Shown piece after piece: positions 29,122 to 45,819 of a stretch of 46,382 nt of DNA. The notes beneath the pieces are model-generated. The model did not search any database, was not told the DNA's origin, and saw only the letters and a program-made list of their open reading frames with translations. The stretch is from Ignavibacteria bacterium. Lineage in GTDB: Bacteria > Bacteroidota > Ignavibacteria > Kapaibacteriales > Kapaibacteriaceae. The translations under genes were made by a program, and so were the position numbers. Location: contig CANHFG010000008.1 in the NCBI GenBank assembly GCA_947459875.1, positions 1 through 46,382 on the forward strand. Direction: 5' to 3'. Each line of letters begins with the position of its first letter. Positions within the stretch are counted from its first letter, which is position 1.

Positions 29122-29645
29122 GTATCATCACACTGCTGATGCTGGCAACGTTTACCATTGCCTGCACGCCCCCTACCAACGGCCAGACAGGATCGAAGTC
29201 TGGCACGAAGACCGTCACGATCTATTCTACCGCAACCAGGAAGGCAACACCGATGAACCGCATACAGAAGACCGACGATGAGTGGCGCAAGGAACTCTCC
29301 GACGAGGAGTTCCGCATCGCTCGCAAGAAAGGGACTGAACGTGCCTTCACGGGCAAGTACTGGAACCACCACGACGAGGGTATCTACCTCTGCCGCTGTT
29401 GCGGAACGGAGCTCTTTCCAAGCGGCACCAAGTTTGAATCCGGTTCTGGCTGGCCGTCTTTCTTTGATCCTGTGGCAAAGACCAACGTGGAACTTCACGA
29501 GGACAATTCACTCATGATGGAACGCACCGAGGTGCTTTGTGCCCGTTGCGGGGCGCACCTCGGTCACGTATTCGACGACGGTCCAAAACCTACTGGCCTG
29601 CGCTATTGTATCAACAGCGCTTCACTCGACTTCAAGAAGAAGTAA
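29118..29645 (+). CDS. msrB: Peptide-methionine (R)-S-oxide reductase MsrB (lipoprotein form)
   Basis: A 175-residue enzyme that reduces the R form of methionine sulfoxide in proteins. The N-terminus has a lipobox (FTIAC, Cys16), so it should be exported and lipid anchored rather than cytoplasmic. The MsrB domain is complete: zinc cysteines Cys92/Cys95 and Cys141/Cys144, [11 protein letters not shown] (about 108-118), [10 protein letters not shown] and the catalytic Cys164 in RYCINSASL. An internal ATG (residue 46) would give a cytoplasmic form, but the first ATG overlaps the truA stop and gives a good signal. It overlaps the convergent RND gene by 14 bp. Confidence 0.93.
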
Positions 29646-32600
29646 GAGCTTCGGCAGCACGCTCGGCACGAGCACGGCGCAGTTGTCGCTTGATGCCACG
29701 CCGTGCCAGGATGTAATACATACACGGCACGACAACGAGCGTAAGAAAGGTCGAGAAGCCCAGACCATAGACGATGGCCCATGCCAGCGGACCCCAGAAC
29801 GCCACACTGTCGGAGCCGATGTGGAAGTGCGGGTTACGCAGATTGATCAGCTCCCAGAAGTCCACGTTCAGTCCAATGGCCAGCGGCACTAGCCCGAGGA
29901 TCGTCGCCCCTGCCGTGAGGATAACAGGATTGAAGCGGATCGCGCCCCCTTCGATGACGGCACGGCGCAGACTCCATCCCTGCGACAGAAGAACATCCGT
30001 GAAGTCCAGAAGCACAATACCATTGCGCACGACGATCCCACCAAGAGCAACAATGCCCACACCGGTGATGGCGATCGAGAATGTCATCTGGAAGATCACA
30101 AAGCCCAGCAGGACGCCGATAAGACTGAAGACCACCGTCACCATCACAAGCAGCGGTTTGGCAACGGAGTTGAACTGCGTGACCATGATCAGGAAGATCA
30201 GTAGAGCGGCAATGAGGAACGCAAAGCCGAGGAAGCTTGCGCTTTCCTGCTGCTCTTCCTGTGCACCAGTGAGCTTTACCGTGTAACCGTCCGGTAGCGC
30301 ATAGCCCTGCAGGGCGGCTCGGATCTCTGTGTTGACAGCGTTCTCATTGTATCCTTCGAGCAGGTTCGACCCCAGTGTCACGACGCGACGCTGGTTCTTT
30401 CGATTGATGCCCGCATACGTCGATGTGTATTGCAGCGTTGCAATGGAAGCCACCGGCACCTGGCGATACTGTCCGGTGCTCATGTCCATGAACGACACCG
30501 GCTGATTCATCAGCGCTTCGGCGTCGCTGCGCACGCGCTCGATCGATCGGACCTGCACGGGATACTCGTCTTCTCCGGAACGGAACTTGGTTGCCTCGGA
30601 GCCATACATGCTGCTACGCAGCATCATGCCCACCTGAACAGTGCTGATACCCTCGGCATTGGCCTTCTGGCGGTCTATGATAACCGCTAGCTCGGGCTTG
30701 TTGCGCACAAGGTCACTGCGAAGACGCTCAACACCGGCGATCTTCGCCGTATCGGTCAGATATACACGGATCTGCTCGGCCAGTGCCGTCAGTGTCTCAA
30801 AGTCGTCGCCGGCGATCTCAATATTCACCGGCTTTCCGGTTGGTGGTCCGTTGGATTCCTTGTCGACCACGATCTCTACACCCGGCAGATCAGCGAGCAC
30901 CTTACGGAAGCGGCCGAGATATTCACCCGTGCTCTTGCCACCACGTTTCTGATACTCGACAAAGGCCACCGTGACCTTGCCCTTGTGCGGTGTGACCGTG
31001 CGATCCGGGTTACGAGGATCGCCGGCACCCAAGCCAACGTTGGAAATCACGGACTTGACGAGCGGGTTCGATGGCCCCAGTTCCTTCTGTATGCGCTGCT
31101 CGACGATCTTGACGACGCTATCGGTTTCAACGGCGTCAGTACCGATCGGCAACTGAACGTACACGAAGGCGTTGTTGGGCTCTCCTTCCGGGAAAAACGT
31201 CGGCGGACGCATGGCTACGATCGTGATGGCAAATGTTGCGATCAGAAGGGCAACCATCGAAGCAAGGATCAAATACGGCCGCTTTCCATGAAGAGACCAA
31301 CGCAGCGTGGATCGATATGCCGACATGATAGCCGGCAACGTCCGGTGCTGAAACGGCAGGATCAGACGCGGCGTAATGTAACGACGGTTCACGTACCAGA
31401 AGACCACTGTGAAGAGCGCCAGCGTCGTGATCCACAACTGACCGCTCACAATACCGAGCGCCGCGAGCAGGCCAACACCGCCGCCAGTGATCAACAGGCG
31501 TCGCTGCGTCATCACCACCGGACGTCTTTCCATGAAATCAACGGCAAACACCGGATTCATGATGTAGGCAACAATGAGCGAGGCCGTTAGCGTAATGATC
31601 AATACAGCCGGCAGATAGACCATGAACTCGCCAACGAGGCCGGGCCAGAAGAGCAGCGGAAAGAATGGCGCAAGTGTCGTAAGCGTGCCGGCAACCACGG
31701 GCGCGAAGACCTCGGCTGCAGCATACTTCGTGGCTGTCTTCACGTCGAGGTCATGCTTGGTGTGCAGACGGTGCGTGTTCTCGATCACCACGATGGCATC
31801 ATCGACAACGATTCCCAGAGCCAGCAGGAAGGCAAAAGTCACCACGATGTTGAACGTGAAGTCAAGCCCCGGCATCACCAGGAAGGCCATGAAAGAAGAA
31901 AGGGGCGTGGCAAGACCAACAAACAGGGCATTTTGTACGCCCATGAAGAACATCAGCACGATGGTCACAAGCAGGAAGCCAATGATGATCGTATTTATCA
32001 GATCGGCAAGATTGATCCGTGTGGCCGTAGACTGGTCGTTGGTGATCGTGATCTTGACCGTTGACGGCAGACGCTTTTCGCTGTACTCGCTGACGATCTC
32101 CTGGATCTTGTCCGAGGCGGCGATCAGATTCTCACCGGCCTTCTTGAGCACTGCGAGCGTGACGACTTCCTTGCCGTCCAGGCGCGCAAAACTCTGCTGC
32201 TCTTTCGTGGTTTCGCGCACCGAAGCCACATCACGTACATAGGCCGTCACGCCCCGAAAGCTGCGCACGACAACACTGTTGATCTGCTCGACAGAGGCAA
32301 ACTCACCGCTGACCTGCAGATTGCGCCGCACACCGGCGTTGAGCAGTTCACCTCCGGAGATGTTCACGTTCTCCGAACCGATCGCACGCGACACGTCATC
32401 GAACGACAAACCGAGAGCCTGCAATCGATAGGGATCCACATCTACACGGATCTCACGCTCGAGCGCGCCGATGACATCAGTCCGCCGGATCTCCGGTAGC
32501 GCTTCGAGCTTGTCCTTGAGCTCGTCGGCGTATTGCTTGAGTGCCTCGAGACCAACCGTTCCCGAGATGTTGATGTTCATGATCGGGAACTCCGAGAAGT

Positions 32601-33015
32601 CGATCTCAGCTACCTGCGGTTCCTTTGTCAGCTGCGTCGGCAACTCGGTGCGGGCACGGTCGACTGCGTCATTCACACGTTGCTTGGCCACCACCGGATC
32701 GATGTCCGTGGTGAACTCAACAACGACGATCGAGGCATCCTGGATGCTATTGCTGGTGACCTTCTTTACGTCCGCCACCGACTTCATCTGCTTCTCGATC
32801 GGGCGAGTGATCAGATTCTCGATGTCCGTCGGGGAAGTACCGGCGTTGATCGTCGACACCAGAATGGTCGGAACGACGATATCAGGAAACTGCTCCTTGG
32901 GTAGCCTGATATAGGTCAGAATCCCAAGTACGCTGATGATGACCATGAGCACGTAGATCGTCGTACGGTTTTCGACGGCCCACGCGGTGATGGGAAAGCT
33001 TTTATGGTGTTGCAT
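29632..33015 (-). CDS. RND efflux pump inner-membrane subunit (AcrB/HAE1 family)
   Basis: A 1127-residue proton-driven exporter. The first helix [25 protein letters not shown] and the proton-relay motif [18 protein letters not shown] (with the Asp pair) are diagnostic. Two large periplasmic domains and a second helix bundle ([34 protein letters not shown]) complete the repeat structure. Between the two halves, at about residues 503-545, an additional hydrophobic pair ([19 protein letters not shown] and [14 protein letters not shown]) appears, suggesting two extra membrane helices compared with AcrB. It is the last gene of a seven-gene efflux operon, eight bases after its adaptor. The substrate is unknown, probably drugs, bile-like compounds or lipids. 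Confidence 0.95.
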
Positions 33016-33023
33016 GATGCGTC

Positions 33024-34139
33024 TTACCCCACGATCCGAACGTTTTGACCAGCAGAGACCATGGTAGCCCCCTTGACGATCACGCGCTGACCGCGCTCGA
33101 GACCGGTGGTGATCTGCACGTTTCCACCCGAGGCAAGTCCCGTCACAACATTTGAACGTCGCACAAGCCCCTTGTCATCGACGCAGTACACATACGACCC
33201 CTGATTGTCCTGCAACACGGCCGAGAGCGGAAGCACAAGCACATTCTTCAGCGTGACATCATTGATGGAGACGCGGCAGGTCGTGTTCGGGCGCAGTGAA
33301 GATGGAACGGGGCTGATCGGGATCTCAAGCCGGAAGGTGCGACTGGACGGGTTGACCAGACGGGAGACCGCCTTGATGGCCGTTGTGAGCGTGTCACCGA
33401 TCTCCGGAAACTCTATTATCACTCTATCTCCGAGCGTGACCGTTGACAGGAACGTCTCGGCAACATCCACAACAACCCGTACGTCGCTCATGTTGACGAT
33501 GGTCAGCGCCGGCATTCCCGGCATGGCCATTTCACCAACCTTGGCCATGATGTTCTCGGCAAATCCGCTGCGCGGGGCGGTGATACGCGACATCGTCTGC
33601 TGCTCGCGGAGCGATTCCATACGACGCTCAAGCGCTTCAAGCTGATTCTTGGCCGTCAGGTACTGGATCTCACTACCGGCCTTCTGCTCGAAGATCCGCT
33701 TCTGCTTCTCAAACAGGGTGCGGGCGAAGTCCAATTGAACCTCAATCTCCTTGATCCCCTTACGGATCAGTTCATCGTCCATCTCAACCAGCACCTGGCC
33801 GGCAGTCACGGCCTGACCGGGCGTGACGTTGACGCGTGTGATACGACCACCCATCTGTGGTGACAGGGTGATGGTTGAGCGTGCATCGACCGTGCCCTTG
33901 ACGTCGACAAGGTGCACGAGATCGGACGTCGTGACATCGACCACCGACACCGGCATTGCGGAGGAGCCGTTCTGGTCGTCCGGAAGCGATGCTTCAAGCG
34001 CCTTGATCTCATTCTCGATGCGGAGCTTCTCCGTCCGCAGCTGATCAAGTCGTTGTTTCGGTGAGGGGTTCTCCGACTCACCGCAGGAGATCAGAAGAAC
34101 GAAAAGAGGTAGCAGCCAGAGTGGTCGCTTCATAAACAT
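33024..34139 (-). CDS. RND efflux periplasmic adaptor lipoprotein
   Basis: A 371-residue membrane-fusion protein with lipobox LISC (Cys19). After a short coiled segment (KQRLDQLRTEKLRIENEIKALEAS) comes the lipoyl half-motif GGRITRVNVTPGQAVTAGQVLVEMDD, the helical hairpin (about 135-185), the second lipoyl half TAPRSGFAENIMAKVGEMAMPG, and beta-barrel and membrane-proximal domains ending GLERGQRVIVKGATMVSAG. It links the adjacent RND pump to a TolC channel. The start overlaps the ABC ATPase stop as TGATG; ATG 34133 is a possible alternative. Confidence 0.92.
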   Translation of the reverse strand: MFMKRPLWLLPLFVLLISCGESENPSPKQRLDQLRTEKLRIENEIKALEASLPDDQNGSSAMPVSVVDVTTSDLVHLVDVKGTVDARSTITLSPQMGGRITRVNVTPGQAVTAGQVLVEMDDELIRKGIKEIEVQLDFARTLFEKQKRIFEQKAGSEIQYLTAKNQLEALERRMESLREQQTMSRITAPRSGFAENIMAKVGEMAMPGMPALTIVNMSDVRVVVDVAETFLSTVTLGDRVIIEFPEIGDTLTTAIKAVSRLVNPSSRTFRLEIPISPVPSSLRPNTTCRVSINDVTLKNVLVLPLSAVLQDNQGSYVYCVDDKGLVRRSNVVTGLASGGNVQITTGLERGQRVIVKGATMVSAGQNVRIVG

Positions 34140-34849
34140 CAGTGTGATGATGGTGAATAATGTTCTTCGTTGCCAACGATCCGTCCGTCACGGATCGATA
34201 TGATTCGGTCAGCGCGACGTGCGAACTGCACATCGTGCGTGACCATCAGAATGGTCTGGTTGAATTCCGCCTTGAGCTCATTGAGAATGTCGAGCACCAG
34301 ACCGGTGTTCTTTGTGTCGAGATTCCCCGTGGGCTCATCACCGAAAATGATCTTGGGCTCGTTGATCAGTGCGCGCGCAATGGCCACACGTTGCTGCTGT
34401 CCACCGGAAAGCTTGCTGGACTTCTTTTTAGCCTGATCAGCAACACCGAGCATTGAGAGAGTCTTCATTGCGCGGTCTTCCATTTCTTCTGCCGAAAGAA
34501 TACCCCGACGCTGAGCCGGCAGCATGACGTTCTGAAGCACCGTGAAATCCGGCAGCAGGTAGTGGAACTGAAACACAAATCCGATCATTGAGTTTCGGAA
34601 ATCCGCGATGGCGTCCTTATCAAGACTGCGTACATCAATGCCATCAATCGTGATCGAACCGTCGTAATCGGTATCCAGCGTCGACAGTGCATACATGAGC
34701 GTCGTCTTACCGCTTCCTGATGGACCGACAAGTACCACGAACTCTCCCCTATTGACCGTCAGGGAGATATCTTTCAGGACCTTGAACTCCACCGGTTCGG
34801 TGAAGGTCTTGGTGACATGTGTCGCAGTAATGATAGGTGAACTCATCAT
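34139..34849 (-). CDS. ABC transporter ATP-binding protein (LolD/MacB type)
   Basis: A 236-residue ATPase with all catalytic motifs: Walker A GPSGSGKTT (42-50), Q-loop FVFQFHYLLPDFTVLQNV, signature LSGGQQQRVAIARAL, Walker B KIIFGDEPTGNLD and switch VTHD. The FQFHYLLP-type Q-loop is typical of the LolD/MacB/FtsE group that energises mechanotransmission permeases. It partners with the FtsX-like permease directly upstream, the two genes overlapping by ATGA. The full set of motifs contrasts with the degenerate exporter ATPase at 42407-44596. Confidence 0.95.
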   Translation of the reverse strand: MMSSPIITATHVTKTFTEPVEFKVLKDISLTVNRGEFVVLVGPSGSGKTTLMYALSTLDTDYDGSITIDGIDVRSLDKDAIADFRNSMIGFVFQFHYLLPDFTVLQNVMLPAQRRGILSAEEMEDRAMKTLSMLGVADQAKKKSSKLSGGQQQRVAIARALINEPKIIFGDEPTGNLDTKNTGLVLDILNELKAEFNQTILMVTHDVQFARRADRIISIRDGRIVGNEEHYSPSSH

Positions 34850-36117
34850 CGGCTCCGTATGATCTCCACCGGGTCGAATCGTGCCGCCTTTCGAGCCGGG
34901 AAGTATCCTGCGACGGTTGTGGAAACGAGCGCGAAACCAAAGGCTGCCAGATAGAACAGCGGATTGAAGTTGATGATCAGATACTGGACACTGACAAACC
35001 CCTGGATGTTCAGCGGAATCATTCCGACGATCTTGGAAGTAATGAAACCGAGCAGAAGTCCCAGCAGTCCGCCCGTAGTGCCAATGGCGACCGATTCAAG
35101 AAGGAACACCCGCCGGATGTCCCTATCACGATATCCCATCGCCTTGAGAATAGCGATGTCGGGCATCTTCTCGTAGATGATGGTCATGAGGATATTGAAG
35201 ATGCCGAAGCCCGACACGACAAGGATCGAAATGATCACAAACAAAACCGTCAGGTTCTGGATGCGAAAGATCCCGAAGACGTTGGCGTTGGCGGCCTTCC
35301 AGTCTTCGGCCTTATAGCCGAATACACTCTGATACTCGGTGGCGATCGACTGCGCGACGTCCACATCGCGAAGCCGTACGTTGATGTCCGTGATATACGC
35401 TGCCGACTGCTGCAGCAGACGCTGGGCGTTGCGGATGGAGATGTATGCTCGTGAATTATCCTGCAAGGTGATGCCGGTCTTGGATATCCCGACAACCTTC
35501 ATATCCAACGAAACACCACGCGAAGAAATCACAGTGATGTTGTCGTTGAGTCGCGCCCCGAGTTTCTCGGCCAGTCCTGATCCCAGGATCACGGCATTTG
35601 GAAGTGTCTCCATGCGCACAAGCTCACCGGCGATCAGATTTTCGGCCACATGAAACAGCTGATCCTCGCGCTGCACATCGATGCCGGCAAGCGTGCCGGC
35701 CTGCTGCGACATACCATAGCGCAGGATGCCCTGCAGACCGAGATAAGGAGCCACGCCTTCAACGCGTGCGTCGCGTTCAATCTCGCGCAGTATCTGATAG
35801 CCGTTGCGCAGCCGACGTTCCTCATCACGGGGCTTCTGGTTGCGAACCACGGTCCATGTGCTCGCTGTATCCGACTCGAGATCCAGCACGTTGGGCCGCG
35901 CCACACGAACGTCGTTGTAGATATGCACGTGGGCTGTGGTGTTGACGGTCTTTTCGATGAAGTAGCTCTGCAGACCCGTCAGCAGACCGGCCTGAAAGAT
36001 GAACACCGTAACCCCGAACATCACCCCGAGCATTGCCACAACGGTTTGCCTCTTCTTGCTGATGAGGTGCACCCATGCAATATTGAGGAGGGGGCTTCTG
36101 GTGGACGTCTTTTTCAC
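34846..36117 (-). CDS. ABC transporter permease (MacB/LolE-like, FtsX domain)
   Basis: A 423-residue permease with one N-terminal helix (about 23-48, QTVVAMLGVMFGVTVFIFQAGL), a large periplasmic domain (about 55-285) and three C-terminal helices (VLFVIISILVVSGFGIFNILM, SVAIGTTGGLLGLLLGFI, FYLAAFGFALVSTTVAGYFPARKAARFDPVEIIR). The terminal ARKAARFDPVEIIR is the FtsX-family hallmark. With the separate ATPase it forms a split MacB or Lol-type complex. The start is GTG, overlapping the adaptor stop by GTGA. Confidence 0.92.
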   Translation of the reverse strand: MKKTSTRSPLLNIAWVHLISKKRQTVVAMLGVMFGVTVFIFQAGLLTGLQSYFIEKTVNTTAHVHIYNDVRVARPNVLDLESDTASTWTVVRNQKPRDEERRLRNGYQILREIERDARVEGVAPYLGLQGILRYGMSQQAGTLAGIDVQREDQLFHVAENLIAGELVRMETLPNAVILGSGLAEKLGARLNDNITVISSRGVSLDMKVVGISKTGITLQDNSRAYISIRNAQRLLQQSAAYITDINVRLRDVDVAQSIATEYQSVFGYKAEDWKAANANVFGIFRIQNLTVLFVIISILVVSGFGIFNILMTIIYEKMPDIAILKAMGYRDRDIRRVFLLESVAIGTTGGLLGLLLGFITSKIVGMIPLNIQGFVSVQYLIINFNPLFYLAAFGFALVSTTVAGYFPARKAARFDPVEIIRSR

Positions 36118-37229
36118 AGAACAACCTCGTCGGTCTCGTTGAGGCCTGAGAGAATCTCGACGAACCGCAGATCTTCAATGCCGACGTTCAACCGCACCCG
36201 CTGCTCGGTACCATCACGACGAACGGTCACGATCCTATCGGCTGGGACAAATTCTCTGGGAAGCACCAGCGCGCGCTCTTTGCGAGACACGACGATGTTG
36301 GCTTCGAGGGACATACCCGGCAGCAGCTGCATTCCATCGGATTCTATACTGGCGCTTACGCTTACTGTCTTGTCCATGCCCGATACCCGTGGCGTGATCG
36401 ACGTAACCGTGCCGGAGAACACCCGCCCCTTGAGCGCGTCGATGGCAAATGCAACACGCTGACCGACGGCCACAAGAGCAATGTCGCTTTCATCGATGGC
36501 AAGCTCCACCTCGATGCTCTCAGCCTGGCCGATCTCAATAAGTGGCTGTTGCGGCATGACCAATTCACCGACCTTCGGTAAGACATCGTAAACACGTCCC
36601 GCCGCTGAAGCCGTTACGATGAAGTCATCGCGCAGCGATCGTTGGATAGATACGTTGAGTTCGGCTGTGCGCCGCTCGGTTGCCAGACGTCGACGCGTGG
36701 ATTCATACACGTCGCGTGCCTTTTCGTACTGACGCTGAGAGACCTCATACTGCGTCTTTGCCGCGTCATACGTCGATTGCGAGGTTGCCTGTTGCGACAG
36801 AAGTCGCTTTGTGCGCGCGGCCGTCATGGAATCGAGTTCGAGCTTCGCGCGGGTTGCTTCGAGTTCGGCAACTACCGACCGTAGAACAGCCCCCTGATCA
36901 TTGGCATTCTCCCGGGCAAGTCCATAGACCGTCTGGGCTGACTCAACGGCAAGATCTGATGATGTGGCACGGATCCGCAGAAGGGGCTGTCCGGTCGTGA
37001 CCAGATCGCCGGGTTGGACCAGGATCTCCTGCACGATTCCGGGCATCTTCGATGATGCACGATGAAAACCCACCGGGAAGATCTTTCCCGACGCGTAGAC
37101 GGCCTGGGTGATCGAGCGACGCTGCGGACGAACCGTCTTGTCGGACGTATCACATCCGGTGAGACCGGACGCCATGAGAGCTGTCAGCACGAAGGCCGCG
37201 CACCACCCGGAAACAACAATGGTTCTCAT
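36114..37229 (-). CDS. MacA-like periplasmic adaptor lipoprotein
   Basis: A 371-residue HlyD-family adaptor with lipobox LTGC (Cys26). Motifs: MPGIVQEILVQPGDLVTTGQPLLRI (first lipoyl half), a long coiled-coil hairpin (about 105-200, with SQQATSQSTYDAAKTQYEVSQ), VTASAAGRVYDVLPKVGELVMP (second half), and barrel plus terminal domain VRLNVGIEDLRFVEILSGLNETDEVV. It directly precedes the FtsX-type permease, so it most likely serves the ABC pump, while the second adaptor serves the RND pump. Start ATG 37229 lies five bases after the tetR stop. Confidence 0.9.
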   Translation of the reverse strand: MRTIVVSGWCAAFVLTALMASGLTGCDTSDKTVRPQRRSITQAVYASGKIFPVGFHRASSKMPGIVQEILVQPGDLVTTGQPLLRIRATSSDLAVESAQTVYGLARENANDQGAVLRSVVAELEATRAKLELDSMTAARTKRLLSQQATSQSTYDAAKTQYEVSQRQYEKARDVYESTRRRLATERRTAELNVSIQRSLRDDFIVTASAAGRVYDVLPKVGELVMPQQPLIEIGQAESIEVELAIDESDIALVAVGQRVAFAIDALKGRVFSGTVTSITPRVSGMDKTVSVSASIESDGMQLLPGMSLEANIVVSRKERALVLPREFVPADRIVTVRRDGTEQRVRLNVGIEDLRFVEILSGLNETDEVVL

Positions 37230-37234
37230 ATCAG

Positions 37235-37894
37235 TCAGTTGGCCTGTGTAGGTGAAGGTGAGCGACCGAGTCCACGTATGATCAGCTGAACGATGTCGTG
37301 CAGGATCACCTGCTCCGGCTCGGTAACCCAGCCCGGTGGAATGAGATTGTTACGCAGGATCATGACGGAGCCCTTCATGGCAATGATGATCTCTGCCACT
37401 ACGGTCCGTATCGGACCATGAAGGAAGAAATATCCTGCAGCCACGCCCTCGCTGACGATGCCCTCTACCAGCGAGATCAGACGCTCATTTACACTTATGA
37501 AGTCTGCGATGATCGATGTTTCGCAGTTTGGTTGAAGCAGCAGCCCAATATTCGTCTGCGTCATGACCTGATAGAAGAACTGGTTCTCCTGGGAGTAGGT
37601 GTAGAACGTGCGAAACGCCGATGCGAGCTTCTCCGGAGGTGCAAGAGGGCTTTCCGCCACCGTCGTCATCGACGCTGTCAGCGCTGCTAGGTCATCTGCC
37701 AGAAGCCCCATAAGCAGCTCTTCCCTGCTTCGGAAATAGAGATAGAGCGTGCCTTTGGCCAGCTCCGCTTCCTGAGCGATGCGCTCCATCGTTGTGGTAG
37801 CAATACCGTGTTTAACAAAGGCAGCCCGCGCCGAGGCCAGGATGGCCTTGCGGCGTTGATCACGCTCGCGTTCTTTGCGCTGGATCGTTCCCAT
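37235..37894 (-). CDS. TetR-family transcriptional regulator
   Basis: A 219-residue repressor. The N-terminal DNA-binding domain is complete: RKAILASARAAFVKHGIATTTMERIAQEAELAKGTLYLYFRSREELL (about 15-60), with the helix-turn-helix in the middle. The C-terminal ligand-binding helical domain (about 75-210) is of the kind that senses small molecules. The frame is open much further upstream over tolC, but ATG 37894 is 11 bases after the tolC stop and begins the conserved domain. Being the second gene of the efflux operon, it would be made together with the pump it controls; three palindromes in front of tolC are its likely operators. Confidence 0.93.
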   Translation of the reverse strand: MGTIQRKERERDQRRKAILASARAAFVKHGIATTTMERIAQEAELAKGTLYLYFRSREELLMGLLADDLAALTASMTTVAESPLAPPEKLASAFRTFYTYSQENQFFYQVMTQTNIGLLLQPNCETSIIADFISVNERLISLVEGIVSEGVAAGYFFLHGPIRTVVAEIIIAMKGSVMILRNNLIPPGWVTEPEQVILHDIVQLIIRGLGRSPSPTQAN

Positions 37895-37904
37895 TGTCGC
37901 CGTG

Positions 37905-39254
37905 CTACTTTGATTCCTGACGCAAAAAGCGCCAGTAAGAGCGGTCGATCTGACCGGTGGCCCGGTCGAAATCAGCTCGCGTGACGTGATAATCCACCAG
38001 TGCCGAAATGGCATTAAGCCTTGCCTGCGCCAGAGATGTCTCCGCATCATTGATCTCGAGCAGGCTTCCGGTGCCCTCACGATAGCGCACACGGGCGATC
38101 TCAAAACCGCGCTGTGCCTGGTCCACCGTGGAGCGCTGCGCCAAAGAACGCTGACGGGCCGACTCGAGCTGATTGATCAGCGTACGCACCTGAAGATTGA
38201 TCAGGTTTGAGACCTGATTAAGTCGCTCTCGCGCAGATTGCACGTCGATCTGTGCCTGCTCGACTTTTTCGCTCGTACGCAGACCGTCGAACAGATTCAT
38301 CGAAAAGCTCAGCCCGACGACCGTACTGGAGGCACTCTGCCAGCCGCTGAGAGATTCACTCTGCCCCTGGTTCTGCCACTGTCCAAAGGCCGCAAGCGTT
38401 GGATAGAAGTCCGACCGGCTGAGGTCAACCATGCGAGTGCCGACATCGATCTGATGGCGCAGGGCCCGTAGGTCGAGATTTTCGTTAACGGCCTGTGTAA
38501 TGGACCGTTCGGCATCGGGTGTCTCGGCGATCGCTGGGAAGCCCCCTTCCGACACAACGATGGAGTCAGCAAGACTCATGCCGATGTAGGTCTGCAGGGC
38601 CGCCAGTGCGGCGTACTTGCCCGACTTGGCCTGAAGCACCATCGGACGAGCATTCGCTACGGCGACATCGGCTCTGATCTTGTCAAATTCAGCAACAAGT
38701 CCCTCTCCGAACAGGGCCGTGATATTGCGCTGCAGCTCGATAATGTTCGTCAGCGAGGCCTCAGCCACCGTTGCATAGCCGCTTGCGGCCACGGCCTGGT
38801 AGTATCGCTTCTTGGTTTCGGTGACCACTTCGGCAACCGCAGCATCAAGTTGCGCCTCAGCTGCATCACTGTAGAGCTTCGAGGCGGATATCGCCGTGAA
38901 CACTGAATTGTTGAAGAGGATCTGCTGGATCTGTGTGGTGACGTTATAGGCATTCGTCAGACCAAACCGCAGTGGTGATATCTCCCCCGTTGCTGGATTC
39001 GGGAAGAAGAACACCGGCAGCTGGATGTTGTGATTAAAGCCGGCCGAGACGTTCAGCGAAGGCAATGCCGTGCCGCGGGCCTCGCGTACCTGCGACTCGG
39101 CCCGCTTGACGCCAAGGCGTGCTACGGCAATTGTCTCGTTCTGCTTGATCGCCATCTCAATGGCAGCATCGAGCGAAAGCTGCCGAACCTGCGCTGTGGC
39201 CAGCATGGAAAGAGCGGCTAGGGCTGCCGCGAGACTCAGGGCAAAACGTGTCAT
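37905..39254 (-). CDS. TolC-family outer-membrane efflux protein
   Basis: A 449-residue outer-membrane channel. Signal peptide at about 1-21 (AALAALSMLATAQ). Two OEP repeats are visible: LSLDAAIEMAIKQNETIAVARLGVKRAESQVREARGTALPSLNVSAGF, and a second starting near residue 225 with ALRHQIDVGTRMVDLSRSDFYPTLAAFGQW, followed by MNLFDGLRTSEKVEQAQIDV and GTGSLLEINDAETSLAQARL. It forms the trimeric exit duct, probably shared by the ABC and RND pumps of the operon since no second tolC is present in it. An AAGGA ribosome site precedes the ATG. It is the first gene of the unit, behind three operator-like palindromes. Confidence 0.93.
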   Translation of the reverse strand: MTRFALSLAAALAALSMLATAQVRQLSLDAAIEMAIKQNETIAVARLGVKRAESQVREARGTALPSLNVSAGFNHNIQLPVFFFPNPATGEISPLRFGLTNAYNVTTQIQQILFNNSVFTAISASKLYSDAAEAQLDAAVAEVVTETKKRYYQAVAASGYATVAEASLTNIIELQRNITALFGEGLVAEFDKIRADVAVANARPMVLQAKSGKYAALAALQTYIGMSLADSIVVSEGGFPAIAETPDAERSITQAVNENLDLRALRHQIDVGTRMVDLSRSDFYPTLAAFGQWQNQGQSESLSGWQSASSTVVGLSFSMNLFDGLRTSEKVEQAQIDVQSARERLNQVSNLINLQVRTLINQLESARQRSLAQRSTVDQAQRGFEIARVRYREGTGSLLEINDAETSLAQARLNAISALVDYHVTRADFDRATGQIDRSYWRFLRQESK

Positions 39255-42338: not shown

Positions 42339-42410
42339 ATGAAGACTACACTCTGGTACATCGACGGTACGCTGCACGAGTTCCGCCGCGGGGGGCATTG
42401 CACCTCATGA
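42339..42410 (+). CDS. Possible 23-residue peptide upstream of the ABC exporter
   Basis: A short ORF starting at ATG 42339, about ten bases after AGGGG, and ending in a TGA that overlaps the exporter ATG (ATGA). Its C-terminal part is EFRRGGHCTS, with a Gly-Gly four residues before the end. It may be a leader peptide for translational coupling, or a tiny double-glycine peptide linked to the exporter; equally it may be a chance ORF. A 13-codon ORF (ATG 42284) precedes it. Confidence 0.3.
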   Translation: MKTTLWYIDGTLHEFRRGGHCTS

Positions 42411-44596
42411 GGCCACTACGTCAGCAGCTGCAGCAATGTCTGCACCGTACAGCAGAACGTTCAAACATCTCCGACATCAACGTCACCATTTTCAACCGTG
42501 TTGACGAGTGCATCGGAGCGCAATCCATCTCGCTTGAGCGCCTGACGGCGATCCTGCGTGACATCGGCATTGTTGCCTCGCTCCGCCGCAGAGGCGGATC
42601 TCTGGCCGACGATCCGGCAATGCTCATCTGGGTGGACAGTTCGGGACATGTTCGGCATGCCGAACGGAAGGGATCCTCCGCCTACCTCGTCACGCAGTTT
42701 TCAGATGGCACGGAAGAGACGACCACCTGGTCGAAACTTCGCTCGGAGATCGAGTCCTACGACTGCATCGTGATCCCTATAGCGCAGCACTCGTTCCTCA
42801 AAGCCGAAGATTCCGGTCTTCCAAGCTCGGGAGCATATGGGGCCAAGGGCGGCGCTAAGAAGTCTGTGCGGTTCCGTGATGTCTGGCCGCTGATGAAGAC
42901 GCTCCTGCTTGCCGAGAAGCGCGACATTCTCATTGTCGTGGTTTACTCAACGTTCATAAGTCTCCTCGGACTGGTCGTCCCGCTCAGCAGTCAGGCAGTG
43001 GTCAATGCTGTTGCGCTTGGCGTATTCAGCCGCCAGCTCGTTGTGCTCTGTGTCGTGGTCTTCATCTCCATGCTGGCCATTGCCGTCATGATGGTTCTTG
43101 AGCGCCACGTGATTGATTACATCCAGCGTCGACTGTTTGTGACGACGGCCTTTGATATCGTGCAGCGCATCCCACGCCTGCGTGAAGATGCCATTCGCGG
43201 GATGTATGTGCCGGAGCTTGTCAACCGGTTCTTCGATGTCATCACCGTTCAGAAAGTGATCGGCAAGTTCCTCCTGGAAGGCGTCGGTGCTTTGCTCATG
43301 CTCCTGACGGGTCTGTTGGTACTGTTTCTCTACCACCCGTTCTTCCTCGTGTACGATTTGATCTTTCTGGCTTTCATCCCAGTTTTGGTCTTCCTACTCG
43401 GGCGCGGCGCTCTGACGACTTCGCTGGCGGTTTCAAATGCCAAATACTCCACGGCGGCATGGCTCGAAGAGGTCGCCCGGAATCAGCGCTCGATCAAACT
43501 TGACGGTGCGGCAGATTATGCAGCCGACCGGCTGGATGTACTCAACGTGGAGTACGTCGATGCCAAGGCCCGCCATTTCCGCATCATGGCGCGCCAGATG
43601 CTCGGCTCATACATCTTCAAGGCCTTTGCAACTGTCGGGATTCTGGCACTGGGAGGGATCCTGGTGCTCGAAGAAGCGATCTCGCTCGGACAGCTTGTAG
43701 CTGCCGAGATCATCATCGTGATGATCATCGGTGCGATCGAGAAGCTTCTGGTGCAGTTCGATGACTTCTACGACTTTGCCGCGGCGATCTACAAACTGCA
43801 GACCATCACAAAGCTGCCGACCGAACACGGCGTCGGACAGATCGTGCCGCCCACCAGCGATTCAGAATCAGTCGTGTTGGAGAACGTCTCATTCACCGAT
43901 GGGTCGTCGTCCGTGCTTCGCGATGTATCGCTGAGCATCAGTGCCGGTGAACACGTCAGCATCGTCGGCGGAAGTGGTAGTGGTAAGTCGACGATCGCGA
44001 AACTGATCATCGGTCTGTTGCTGCCCACGCGCGGTCAGGTCCGTATTAACGGTGTCGATACCAAGCTGGCAGATCTGGCGTCGCTTCGCCAGCACGTTGG
44101 GTATTTGGATCCTGACGACGCCCTGGTTCCGGGAAGCGTCCGCGACAACATCACGCTCGGACGCATGGTATCCGAGGCAGACATCGAAGAGGTGATGAAT
44201 CTCTGCCTACTGCGTGATGAAGTTCGCCGCCTTCCCCGTGGCCAGGAGACCGAGGTCCTCGCCCTTGGAGCGAACCTTTCGTACAGTGTGCGACGTCGCA
44301 TTCTTCTGGCTCGCGTTCTGCTTGGAAAGCCGGCCATCATCATCATCGACAGTGCCTTCCAGGGCCTGGAAGATGGTCTGAAGATGCGCCTGGTTGACTC
44401 GCTGATGAAGATGACCTCGTGCACAGTTGTGAACATCTCGTTCGACACTGACATCATCAGTGCGACCAGCAGGGTGCACGTACTCTCGCAGGGGTCTCTT
44501 GTCTGCTCCGGTACGCTTGATGAGGTCTGCGCTGAACGTGAAGATGTCCGCTCGCTGATCCTTCGCCGGCAATCTCCAGGTGGAGGTGCACAATGA
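42407..44596 (+). CDS. Type-I-secretion-like ABC exporter with degenerate ATPase domain
   Basis: A 729-residue fused exporter. Residues 1-130 lack membrane helices and vaguely follow the layout of a C39-like domain (ISLERLTAILRDIGIVASL, then IESYDCIVIPIAQ) but show no catalytic Cys motif. A six-helix ABC domain (about 165-450) follows. In the nucleotide-binding domain Walker A is intact (GGSGSGKS, 521-528), but the Q-loop Gln is Pro569, the signature is LSYSV (624-628) instead of LSGGQ, Walker B is IIIIDS with Ser649 in place of the catalytic Glu, and the switch His is Phe679. It is followed by an HlyD-type adaptor and a TolC protein, so it is an export system. Start ATG 42407 is chosen; TTG 42398 is in frame. 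Confidence 0.85.
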   Translation: MRPLRQQLQQCLHRTAERSNISDINVTIFNRVDECIGAQSISLERLTAILRDIGIVASLRRRGGSLADDPAMLIWVDSSGHVRHAERKGSSAYLVTQFSDGTEETTTWSKLRSEIESYDCIVIPIAQHSFLKAEDSGLPSSGAYGAKGGAKKSVRFRDVWPLMKTLLLAEKRDILIVVVYSTFISLLGLVVPLSSQAVVNAVALGVFSRQLVVLCVVVFISMLAIAVMMVLERHVIDYIQRRLFVTTAFDIVQRIPRLREDAIRGMYVPELVNRFFDVITVQKVIGKFLLEGVGALLMLLTGLLVLFLYHPFFLVYDLIFLAFIPVLVFLLGRGALTTSLAVSNAKYSTAAWLEEVARNQRSIKLDGAADYAADRLDVLNVEYVDAKARHFRIMARQMLGSYIFKAFATVGILALGGILVLEEAISLGQLVAAEIIIVMIIGAIEKLLVQFDDFYDFAAAIYKLQTITKLPTEHGVGQIVPPTSDSESVVLENVSFTDGSSSVLRDVSLSISAGEHVSIVGGSGSGKSTIAKLIIGLLLPTRGQVRINGVDTKLADLASLRQHVGYLDPDDALVPGSVRDNITLGRMVSEADIEEVMNLCLLRDEVRRLPRGQETEVLALGANLSYSVRRRILLARVLLGKPAIIIIDSAFQGLEDGLKMRLVDSLMKMTSCTVVNISFDTDIISATSRVHVLSQGSLVCSGTLDEVCAEREDVRSLILRRQSPGGGAQ

Positions 44597-45819
44597 CATC
44601 GAATCGCTTTTCGATGGACCTGCTCGGCAGTCCGTCAGTGCATCGCCCCCTTGTTATCATCCTGCTGTCATTCCTTTTCGGATCGATCCTGTTTCTTGTC
44701 TTCGTCCCATGGCAGCAGTCTGTGGTCGGCAGTGGACGCGTGACGTCATTTACGCCGCAGGCACGACCTCAGGCGGTTGAGAGCGCCATCAGCGGTCGTA
44801 TCACCCGATGGTACGTCAAAGAAGGAGATCGCGTCAACAAGGGCGACACCATTCTTGTGATGGCTGATATCAACGTCAACTTCATGGACACCGAGATCAT
44901 CGAACGTCTTCAACTGCTGCGTGGGCGCACCTTTGCTGCCCAGGAGCAGTCCATCGAAGTCGCCATGCAACGTCGACGTCAGGCCGAACAGCGCTATGAA
45001 GCTGCCAAGGCGCGCTTCGATAATGCCAAGATCGAAGCATCGACAGCGCGCATTCGATACGATCGGGCCGACACGCTATTCAAACAGGACCTTGTGGCCC
45101 GAAGGGAGCTTGAATCGGCACAGCTCGGCCTGCAAAAGGCTGTTGCCGATTCGGTGTCCGCATGGACGGGGCTTACGGCGGCCCGCCAGGATATCGAAGC
45201 TTTCTCTGCTGAAGAAGAGCGCGTGGTCAACCAGGCCTATTCAAACATGCACGAAATGGACATCCGCGTGTCGAACGCCGAGGGTCGGCGCGGCGCCGGT
45301 GTGGTCCTTGCACCGATCTCCGGTGTGATCGTTCGCATTGAGAAGTTTGGCGAAGGCATGACCGTCAAAGAAGGTACGCCCCTTGCGCTGATCGTTCCGG
45401 CTGGAGACGATCGTGCTGTTGAGCTGTACGTTGGCAGCATGGATGCAGCACTGGTCGAACCCGGACGCCTGGTTTCCCTGCAGTTCAGCGGCTTCCCTGC
45501 TTTTCAGTTCTCAGGCTGGCAGGCACTTCAGGTGGGTGTGTTTCATGGTCGTGTCAAGGTCGTGGATGCAACCGATGACGGCTCGGGTCGTTTCCGGGTG
45601 CTTATCGTGCCGGCTGAAGAATCCCGATACGGACGCTGGCCAAGCAACCGTTATCTGCGTCAGGGCACCGACGCTACCGGATGGGTATTGCTGGATGACG
45701 TGGCCATAGGCTTCGAGCTCTGGCGTCAGCTCATGGGCTTCCCACCGCAGTACCCGGTTGCGCCTTCCAAGGAGGCAGGAAAACCAGCGGCCAAGCCTGA
45801 CAAAAAGGAGCAGCAGTGA
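44593..45819 (+). CDS. HlyD-family adaptor of the ABC exporter
   Basis: A 408-residue membrane-fusion protein anchored by one N-terminal helix (about 20-38, IILLSFLFGSILFLVFVP) rather than a lipobox, as in type I secretion. The first lipoyl half is ESAISGRITRWYVKEGDRVNKGDTILVMAD; a long coiled coil (about 95-215) follows; the second half is LAPISGVIVRIEKFGEGMTVKEGTPLALIV. A barrel domain and a charged Lys/Pro-rich tail end the protein. The start overlaps the exporter stop (ATGA) and the stop overlaps the next start (GTGA), so the three genes form one translationally coupled unit. Confidence 0.92.
   Translation: MTSNRFSMDLLGSPSVHRPLVIILLSFLFGSILFLVFVPWQQSVVGSGRVTSFTPQARPQAVESAISGRITRWYVKEGDRVNKGDTILVMADINVNFMDTEIIERLQLLRGRTFAAQEQSIEVAMQRRRQAEQRYEAAKARFDNAKIEASTARIRYDRADTLFKQDLVARRELESAQLGLQKAVADSVSAWTGLTAARQDIEAFSAEEERVVNQAYSNMHEMDIRVSNAEGRRGAGVVLAPISGVIVRIEKFGEGMTVKEGTPLALIVPAGDDRAVELYVGSMDAALVEPGRLVSLQFSGFPAFQFSGWQALQVGVFHGRVKVVDATDDGSGRFRVLIVPAEESRYGRWPSNRYLRQGTDATGWVLLDDVAIGFELWRQLMGFPPQYPVAPSKEAGKPAAKPDKKEQQ

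Follow-up and report, generated by a model that had tools for sequence, protein, structure and literature searches.

In EmrAB-TolC, tripartite export by way of an HlyD-type adaptor and TolC is driven by an ion gradient, and the inner-membrane part belongs to the MFS, unrelated to ABC transporters. Among ABC proteins, SbmA is a membrane domain without a cassette that uses protons, passed along a ladder of glutamates, to move peptides (PMC13316013), and for LmrA of Lactococcus it was concluded that the membrane domain by itself acts as a secondary-active translocator, the currents of LmrA requiring ATP binding and not hydrolysis (PMC6155054). Well-known cases of degenerate ABC halves teamed with an active one are TmrAB, TM287/288 and BmrCD (PMC8277102). 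The exporter described here has an ABC protein as its inner-membrane part, unlike EmrAB-TolC, and belongs to a family that shares its fold, domain order, and HlyD and TolC partners with the HlyB, PrtD and LssB-type and PCAT exporters (TIGR03375, TIGR01842, TIGR01846). Like one half of TmrAB, BmrCD and TM287/288, it carries a cassette with altered catalytic residues; in those exporters, however, the active partner half is encoded next door, and we found none here. On balance we favor, with somewhat more confidence than doubt, the reading that it is a tripartite exporter without ATP hydrolysis, probably driven by an ion gradient as in SbmA, an energy source that we infer.

The window, one entire contig of 46,382 nucleotides, contains the operon listed in Table 1, the TolC gene of which runs off the contig end. 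The 729-residue protein matches Pfam ABC_membrane with 37.6 bits (cut-off 28) and ABC_tran with 90.7 bits (1.6e-25; cut-off 25), two matches that make it by ancestry an ABC exporter of the type IV fold. Its best family matches are the HlyB, PrtD and LssB-type and PCAT models, and it falls far below every curated cut-off for type I secretion exporters (206.2 versus 693.1 bits for the ABC subunit model TIGR03375, and 192.1 versus 510.2 bits for TIGR01842). Genes for an adaptor and an outer-membrane factor directly downstream mark it as part of a tripartite HlyD-TolC exporter. An earlier, sequence-only reading had noted that the window holds no second half-transporter; we likewise found none beside the ABC gene, and thus no adjoining intact half that would make a heterodimer.

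Table 1. Coordinates of the exporter operon and of the cassette motifs in the window.
Feature	Position	Strand	Remarks
ABC half-exporter, 729 aa, non-canonical nucleotide-binding domain	42407..44596	+	read from ATG 42407
N-terminal cytosolic domain, residues 1-123	42407..42775	+	helices then beta sheet (AlphaFold, Foldseek)
Membrane domain, residues 160-475	42884..43831	+	family alignment
Walker A GGSGSGKS, intact, including Lys527	43967..43990	+	
Q-loop position: Pro569 for Gln	44111..44113	+	
Signature position: LSYSV (L624-V628) for LSGGQ	44276..44290	+	
Walker B: Asp648 retained, Ser649 for catalytic Glu	44348..44353	+	
Switch position: Phe679 for His	44441..44443	+	
HlyD-type periplasmic adaptor	44593..45819	+	start overlaps ABC stop; Pfam HlyD_3 1.3e-10
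TolC-type outer-membrane factor, cut by contig end	45816..46382	+	Pfam OEP 7.9e-9

The N-terminal domain is suspected to be C39-peptidase-like, as its best Foldseek matches are HlyB and PCAT1; the AlphaFold model, built from three input sequences, was poor overall (pLDDT 44) and usable only for residues 1-122, with a pLDDT of about 70-84 over most of residues 1-123 only. This domain is the fastest-evolving part of the protein (dN/dS 0.15-0.36, several times above the rest) and is missing from most relatives. The window also contains a second efflux cluster at 29632-39254 on the - strand, with an RND pump, two HlyD-type adaptors, a TetR regulator, TolC, and a MacB-like FtsX permease paired with an ABC ATPase of its own.

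When aligned with solved ABC exporters, the cassette shows no gaps from the Q-loop to the Walker B region, and every change that the sequence-only reading had reported is present: Pro569, LSYSV, Ser649 and Phe679 stand where ATP-hydrolyzing ABC transporters, type I secretion exporters among them, have the Q-loop Gln, the signature, the catalytic Glu and the switch His. The retention of Walker A and of the Walker B Asp also holds (K527 and D648 in the frame from 42407). Beyond these positions, the A-loop aromatic seems lost too (FTD, versus FRY or FSY in controls), the D-loop Asp is Glu655, and the signature Ser625 is retained. Such losses exceed chance, since K, Q, D, E and H are kept in all 30 ordinary exporters sampled across the phylum, and they are also kept in 12 of 12 exporters of the type I secretion type. 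Four to five further half-exporters are encoded in the same genome, none above 28% identity to the 729-residue protein; among the five that were aligned, Gln, the Walker B Asp and His are all present, one (L003) has Asp instead of the catalytic Glu, and the signature is altered in two (SVGQ and SQGQ). Relatives at 94% and 80% identity show exactly the losses of the window protein, and a third (66% identical) shares them except for Val, not Phe, at the switch; being common to close relatives, the losses are not sequencing errors. The 80% identical relative, which matches over the 729-residue protein, carries the label Candidatus Kapaibacterium.

Relatives occur in 31 of 60 related genomes (E <= 1e-60) and, at a threshold of 1e-45, in 75 of 296 Bacteroidota genomes, which bears out the earlier suggestion that divergent cassettes of this kind are widespread in Bacteroidota. 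The gene order ABC, HlyD, TolC is found at nearly all family loci, and a gene of TetR length lies just upstream in many operons (the one tested was TetR); because many homologous operons begin with such a gene, the substrate is likely a small molecule or peptide. Among the closest Kapabacteria the genes run UvrA, ABC, HlyD, TolC, with three more behind them that we judged by eye to encode EtfB, EtfA and a bifunctional nuclease. The operon is also found on sphingomonad plasmids, of Sphingobium and Novosphingobium (L263, L264), where the cassette has decayed still further, Walker A included, and where one protein is annotated only as a transmembrane-domain protein. In family f7 (L068-L072, L075), no HlyD or TolC gene is nearby and RecG adjoins most members, whose cassettes have Asn for the switch His and keep Glu. 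At another locus (L066, 8467-10530 in G011), an in-frame TAG separates membrane domain from cassette and leaves frames of 467 and 211 residues, either a split gene or an error. Literature searches, which reached few subscription papers, found no published description of the family, and a seemingly related Zymomonas paper deals with other pumps. The family is thus widespread and previously unremarked. Annotation pipelines label members with a nucleotide-binding domain as ATP-binding exporters, for example in Aureibacter, a label that would mislead in cases of a dead or absent engine.

Across the family, cassettes fall into a decay series in which Glu and His are kept with an altered signature (24 sequences), then His is lost, then Glu (81 sequences), then Walker A (L065 and L149, and also sphingomonads and Aureibacter), and finally the cassette is absent. 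The members nearest the canonical state have LSTGQ, Asp-Glu and His and no Q-loop Gln; LSFGM-type signatures with Glu and His still present come next, followed by the change of His to Asn, and once Glu is lost the Walker B Asp is often Glu or Asn. Loss of the Q-loop Gln is not universal, as about ten sequences with a nucleotide-binding domain have it, mostly in groups without Glu and His. In the window protein and three relatives, Glu is lost and Walker A retained. Homologues with the canonical Glu, His and LSGGQ were what the sequence-only reading had taken to speak against a lost engine; those at 45-55% identity do keep Glu and His, but not LSGGQ or Gln, which makes the window protein a recent end point of the decay series and not one example of a family-wide dead enzyme. 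In a tree built on the membrane domain alone, the window clade (support 100/99) falls within Kapabacteria whose Glu and His are intact, joined with its Walker A-less sister L065 at 98/98 and with the next Glu- and His-bearing group at 99/89. Since it is nested in this way, its loss was independent of that in the large cassette-free clade described below, and the catalytic loss in the window lineage is a separate, recent event.

The sequence-only reading missed a cassette-free branch, which in our view speaks more strongly against any need for ATP hydrolysis and which further sets the family apart from type I secretion exporters. Four matches in the Bacteroidota survey spanned the membrane domain only, and family-wide searches gave 51 cassette-free rows for analysis, in three families. 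In the membrane-domain tree these rows group as a single clade (100/100) that sits among rows whose cassettes are decayed, and we therefore rejected repeated independent loss of the whole cassette; the cassette-bearing neighbors of the clade often have Asn, Asp or His for the magnesium-holding Ser/Thr of Walker A. All 51 rows have an HlyD frame within 118 nt after the gene, overlapping it by 8-14 nt in 38, and a search of the downstream DNA found a nucleotide-binding domain in none of the 51. Nor did we find a split-off family cassette elsewhere in 12 cassette-free genomes, where the best cassette matches reached 1e-19 to 1e-26, versus 1e-55 to 1e-164 in four controls, and lay nearly all in frames of ordinary exporter size, about 600 residues. 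Assembly error is excluded for this form because several of the genomes are single contigs and the trait is common across genera. Some genomes (G585 and G553) encode both cassette-free and cassette-bearing members, making mixed dimers possible. Neither the window protein nor the cassette-free members match Pfam SbmA_BacA; the match found is ABC_membrane.

The membrane domain is gapless at 307 aligned positions in almost the entire family, and cassette-free members keep all, or all but one, of these. Within its hydrophobic membrane stretches lie eight conserved charged positions (K287, D/E291, H310, K/R405, E434, E445, K446 and D456), as against none in 21 ordinary exporters (mean membrane-domain identity 0.40, versus 0.45 in the family). 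A plain count of conserved charged residues did not discriminate (18 in the family versus 14 in one control draw), and only placement in membrane stretches separated the two sets. Family-specific conserved residues lie both in the membrane and in cytoplasmic loops, and the loop residues that normally contact the cassette are close to 100% conserved even in cassette-free members, so that an ATPase partner could still dock there. The same eight charged residues occur in members with Glu and His intact, and may thus serve substrate binding or adaptor contact, not ion coupling.

As the sequence-only reading held, the gene is intact and coupled to HlyD and TolC genes, and its cassette is under purifying selection, with a dN/dS of about 0.05. 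The ratio is 0.049 when the window is paired with the 94% relative and 0.038-0.070 where the 80% relative is involved; the 0.038 belongs to the window's own pair with that relative and is approximate, as dS there exceeds 1. The corresponding values are 0.016-0.030 for the membrane domain (0.016-0.025 in the two window pairs), to which the cassette thus comes close while lying well below the N-terminal domain, and 0.03-0.10 for dead cassettes of other lineages. Among the 81 homologues without Glu, Walker A Gly526 and Lys527 are 98% conserved, while signature, Glu and His drift. Selection of this strength on the window's dead cassette indicates that the decayed domain has a function, which on the conservation pattern is probably, as the simplest reading, ATP binding.

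Because the engine has decayed or been deleted while the rest of the pump is tightly conserved, at least some of these pumps cannot depend on hydrolyzing ATP themselves and must run on something else. In the reading we favor, the gene would encode the inner-membrane part of a three-part exporter made of membrane domain, HlyD adaptor and TolC channel, with a cassette that may no longer hydrolyze ATP at a useful rate and probably still binds it, holding or gating the dimer. Transport of the substrate would fall to the membrane domain, which would draw on an ion gradient, probably of protons, with the conserved charged residues in TM3, TM5 and TM6 as the putative coupling route, and in one large clade, with the cassette deleted, the membrane domain would work alone. 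LmrA resembles this proposal in that its membrane domain is reported to work alone on ion gradients and nucleotide binding opens its currents; it has a normal ATPase, however, and its domain-only form was made in the laboratory. SbmA and BacA (SLiPTs) resemble the cassette-free branch as exporter membrane domains minus the cassette and, like the family, have charged residues in the membrane, a likeness drawn without matching positions one by one. They are peptide importers, whereas the family is an exporter with HlyD and TolC and no added TM0; SLiPTs such as SbmA have lost the coupling helices, whereas the family retains its cytoplasmic coupling loops, and the family is of separate origin, with decaying intermediates still alive.

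Hydrolysis might instead come from a partner whose gene lies elsewhere, either an intact half-exporter or a free ATPase; the sequence-only reading had also raised a partner of this kind. The precedents of TmrAB, TM287/288 and BmrCD (PMC8277102), the other half-exporters of the genome, and the cytoplasmic loops conserved even without a cassette all speak for such pairing. We nevertheless consider it unlikely, given that almost no family locus has an adjoining partner (only L129 and L159 have an unclassified ABC gene of half-exporter size nearby), that the own-genome exporters are at most 28% identical, and that the 12 cassette-free genomes yielded no diverged family cassette. It is also relevant that the halves of known heterodimeric exporters are usually encoded together. 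Neighborhoods therefore lend the partner no support, and we retain it as a rival.

We give a lower probability to the absence of an energized pump, in which the membrane domain would serve HlyD-TolC as a regulated channel, a scaffold or a sensor, switched by ATP binding; this would fit the retention of ATP-binding but not hydrolysis residues, and the f7 genes that stand apart from HlyD and TolC, but the charged membrane residues and gapless length conservation resemble a transporter with moving parts. Lower again we place a slow ATPase that uses other residues, the changes merely tuning its activity. The intact Walker A and Walker B Asp, the retained Ser625 and the purifying selection on the cassette are consistent with residual hydrolysis, yet Glu, His, Gln, the signature Gly and probably the A-loop aromatic have gone together, the sister lineage L065 has lost Walker A too, and one clade has lost the entire domain. 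Simultaneous loss of several catalytic residues might also point to a decaying pseudogene or sequencing artefact, an explanation to which we give almost no credence, as it is refuted by the conservation data: an intact frame, the same losses in relatives, low dN/dS and a conserved operon.

How a primary (ATP-driven) transporter can turn into a secondary (gradient-driven) one has until now been argued chiefly from SbmA, whose intermediates are gone. More tentatively than our reading of the window protein itself, and short of regarding it as probable, we suggest that this exporter lineage as a whole may have been converted from ATP-driven to ion-gradient-driven, an independent repeat of the SbmA transition inside an HlyD-TolC machine, with living intermediates that would run from a near-normal cassette, through an ATP-binding-only form as in the window, to none. 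Because the family keeps its intermediates in living species, and in an operon open to deletion in a laboratory strain, each step of such a conversion can be tested.
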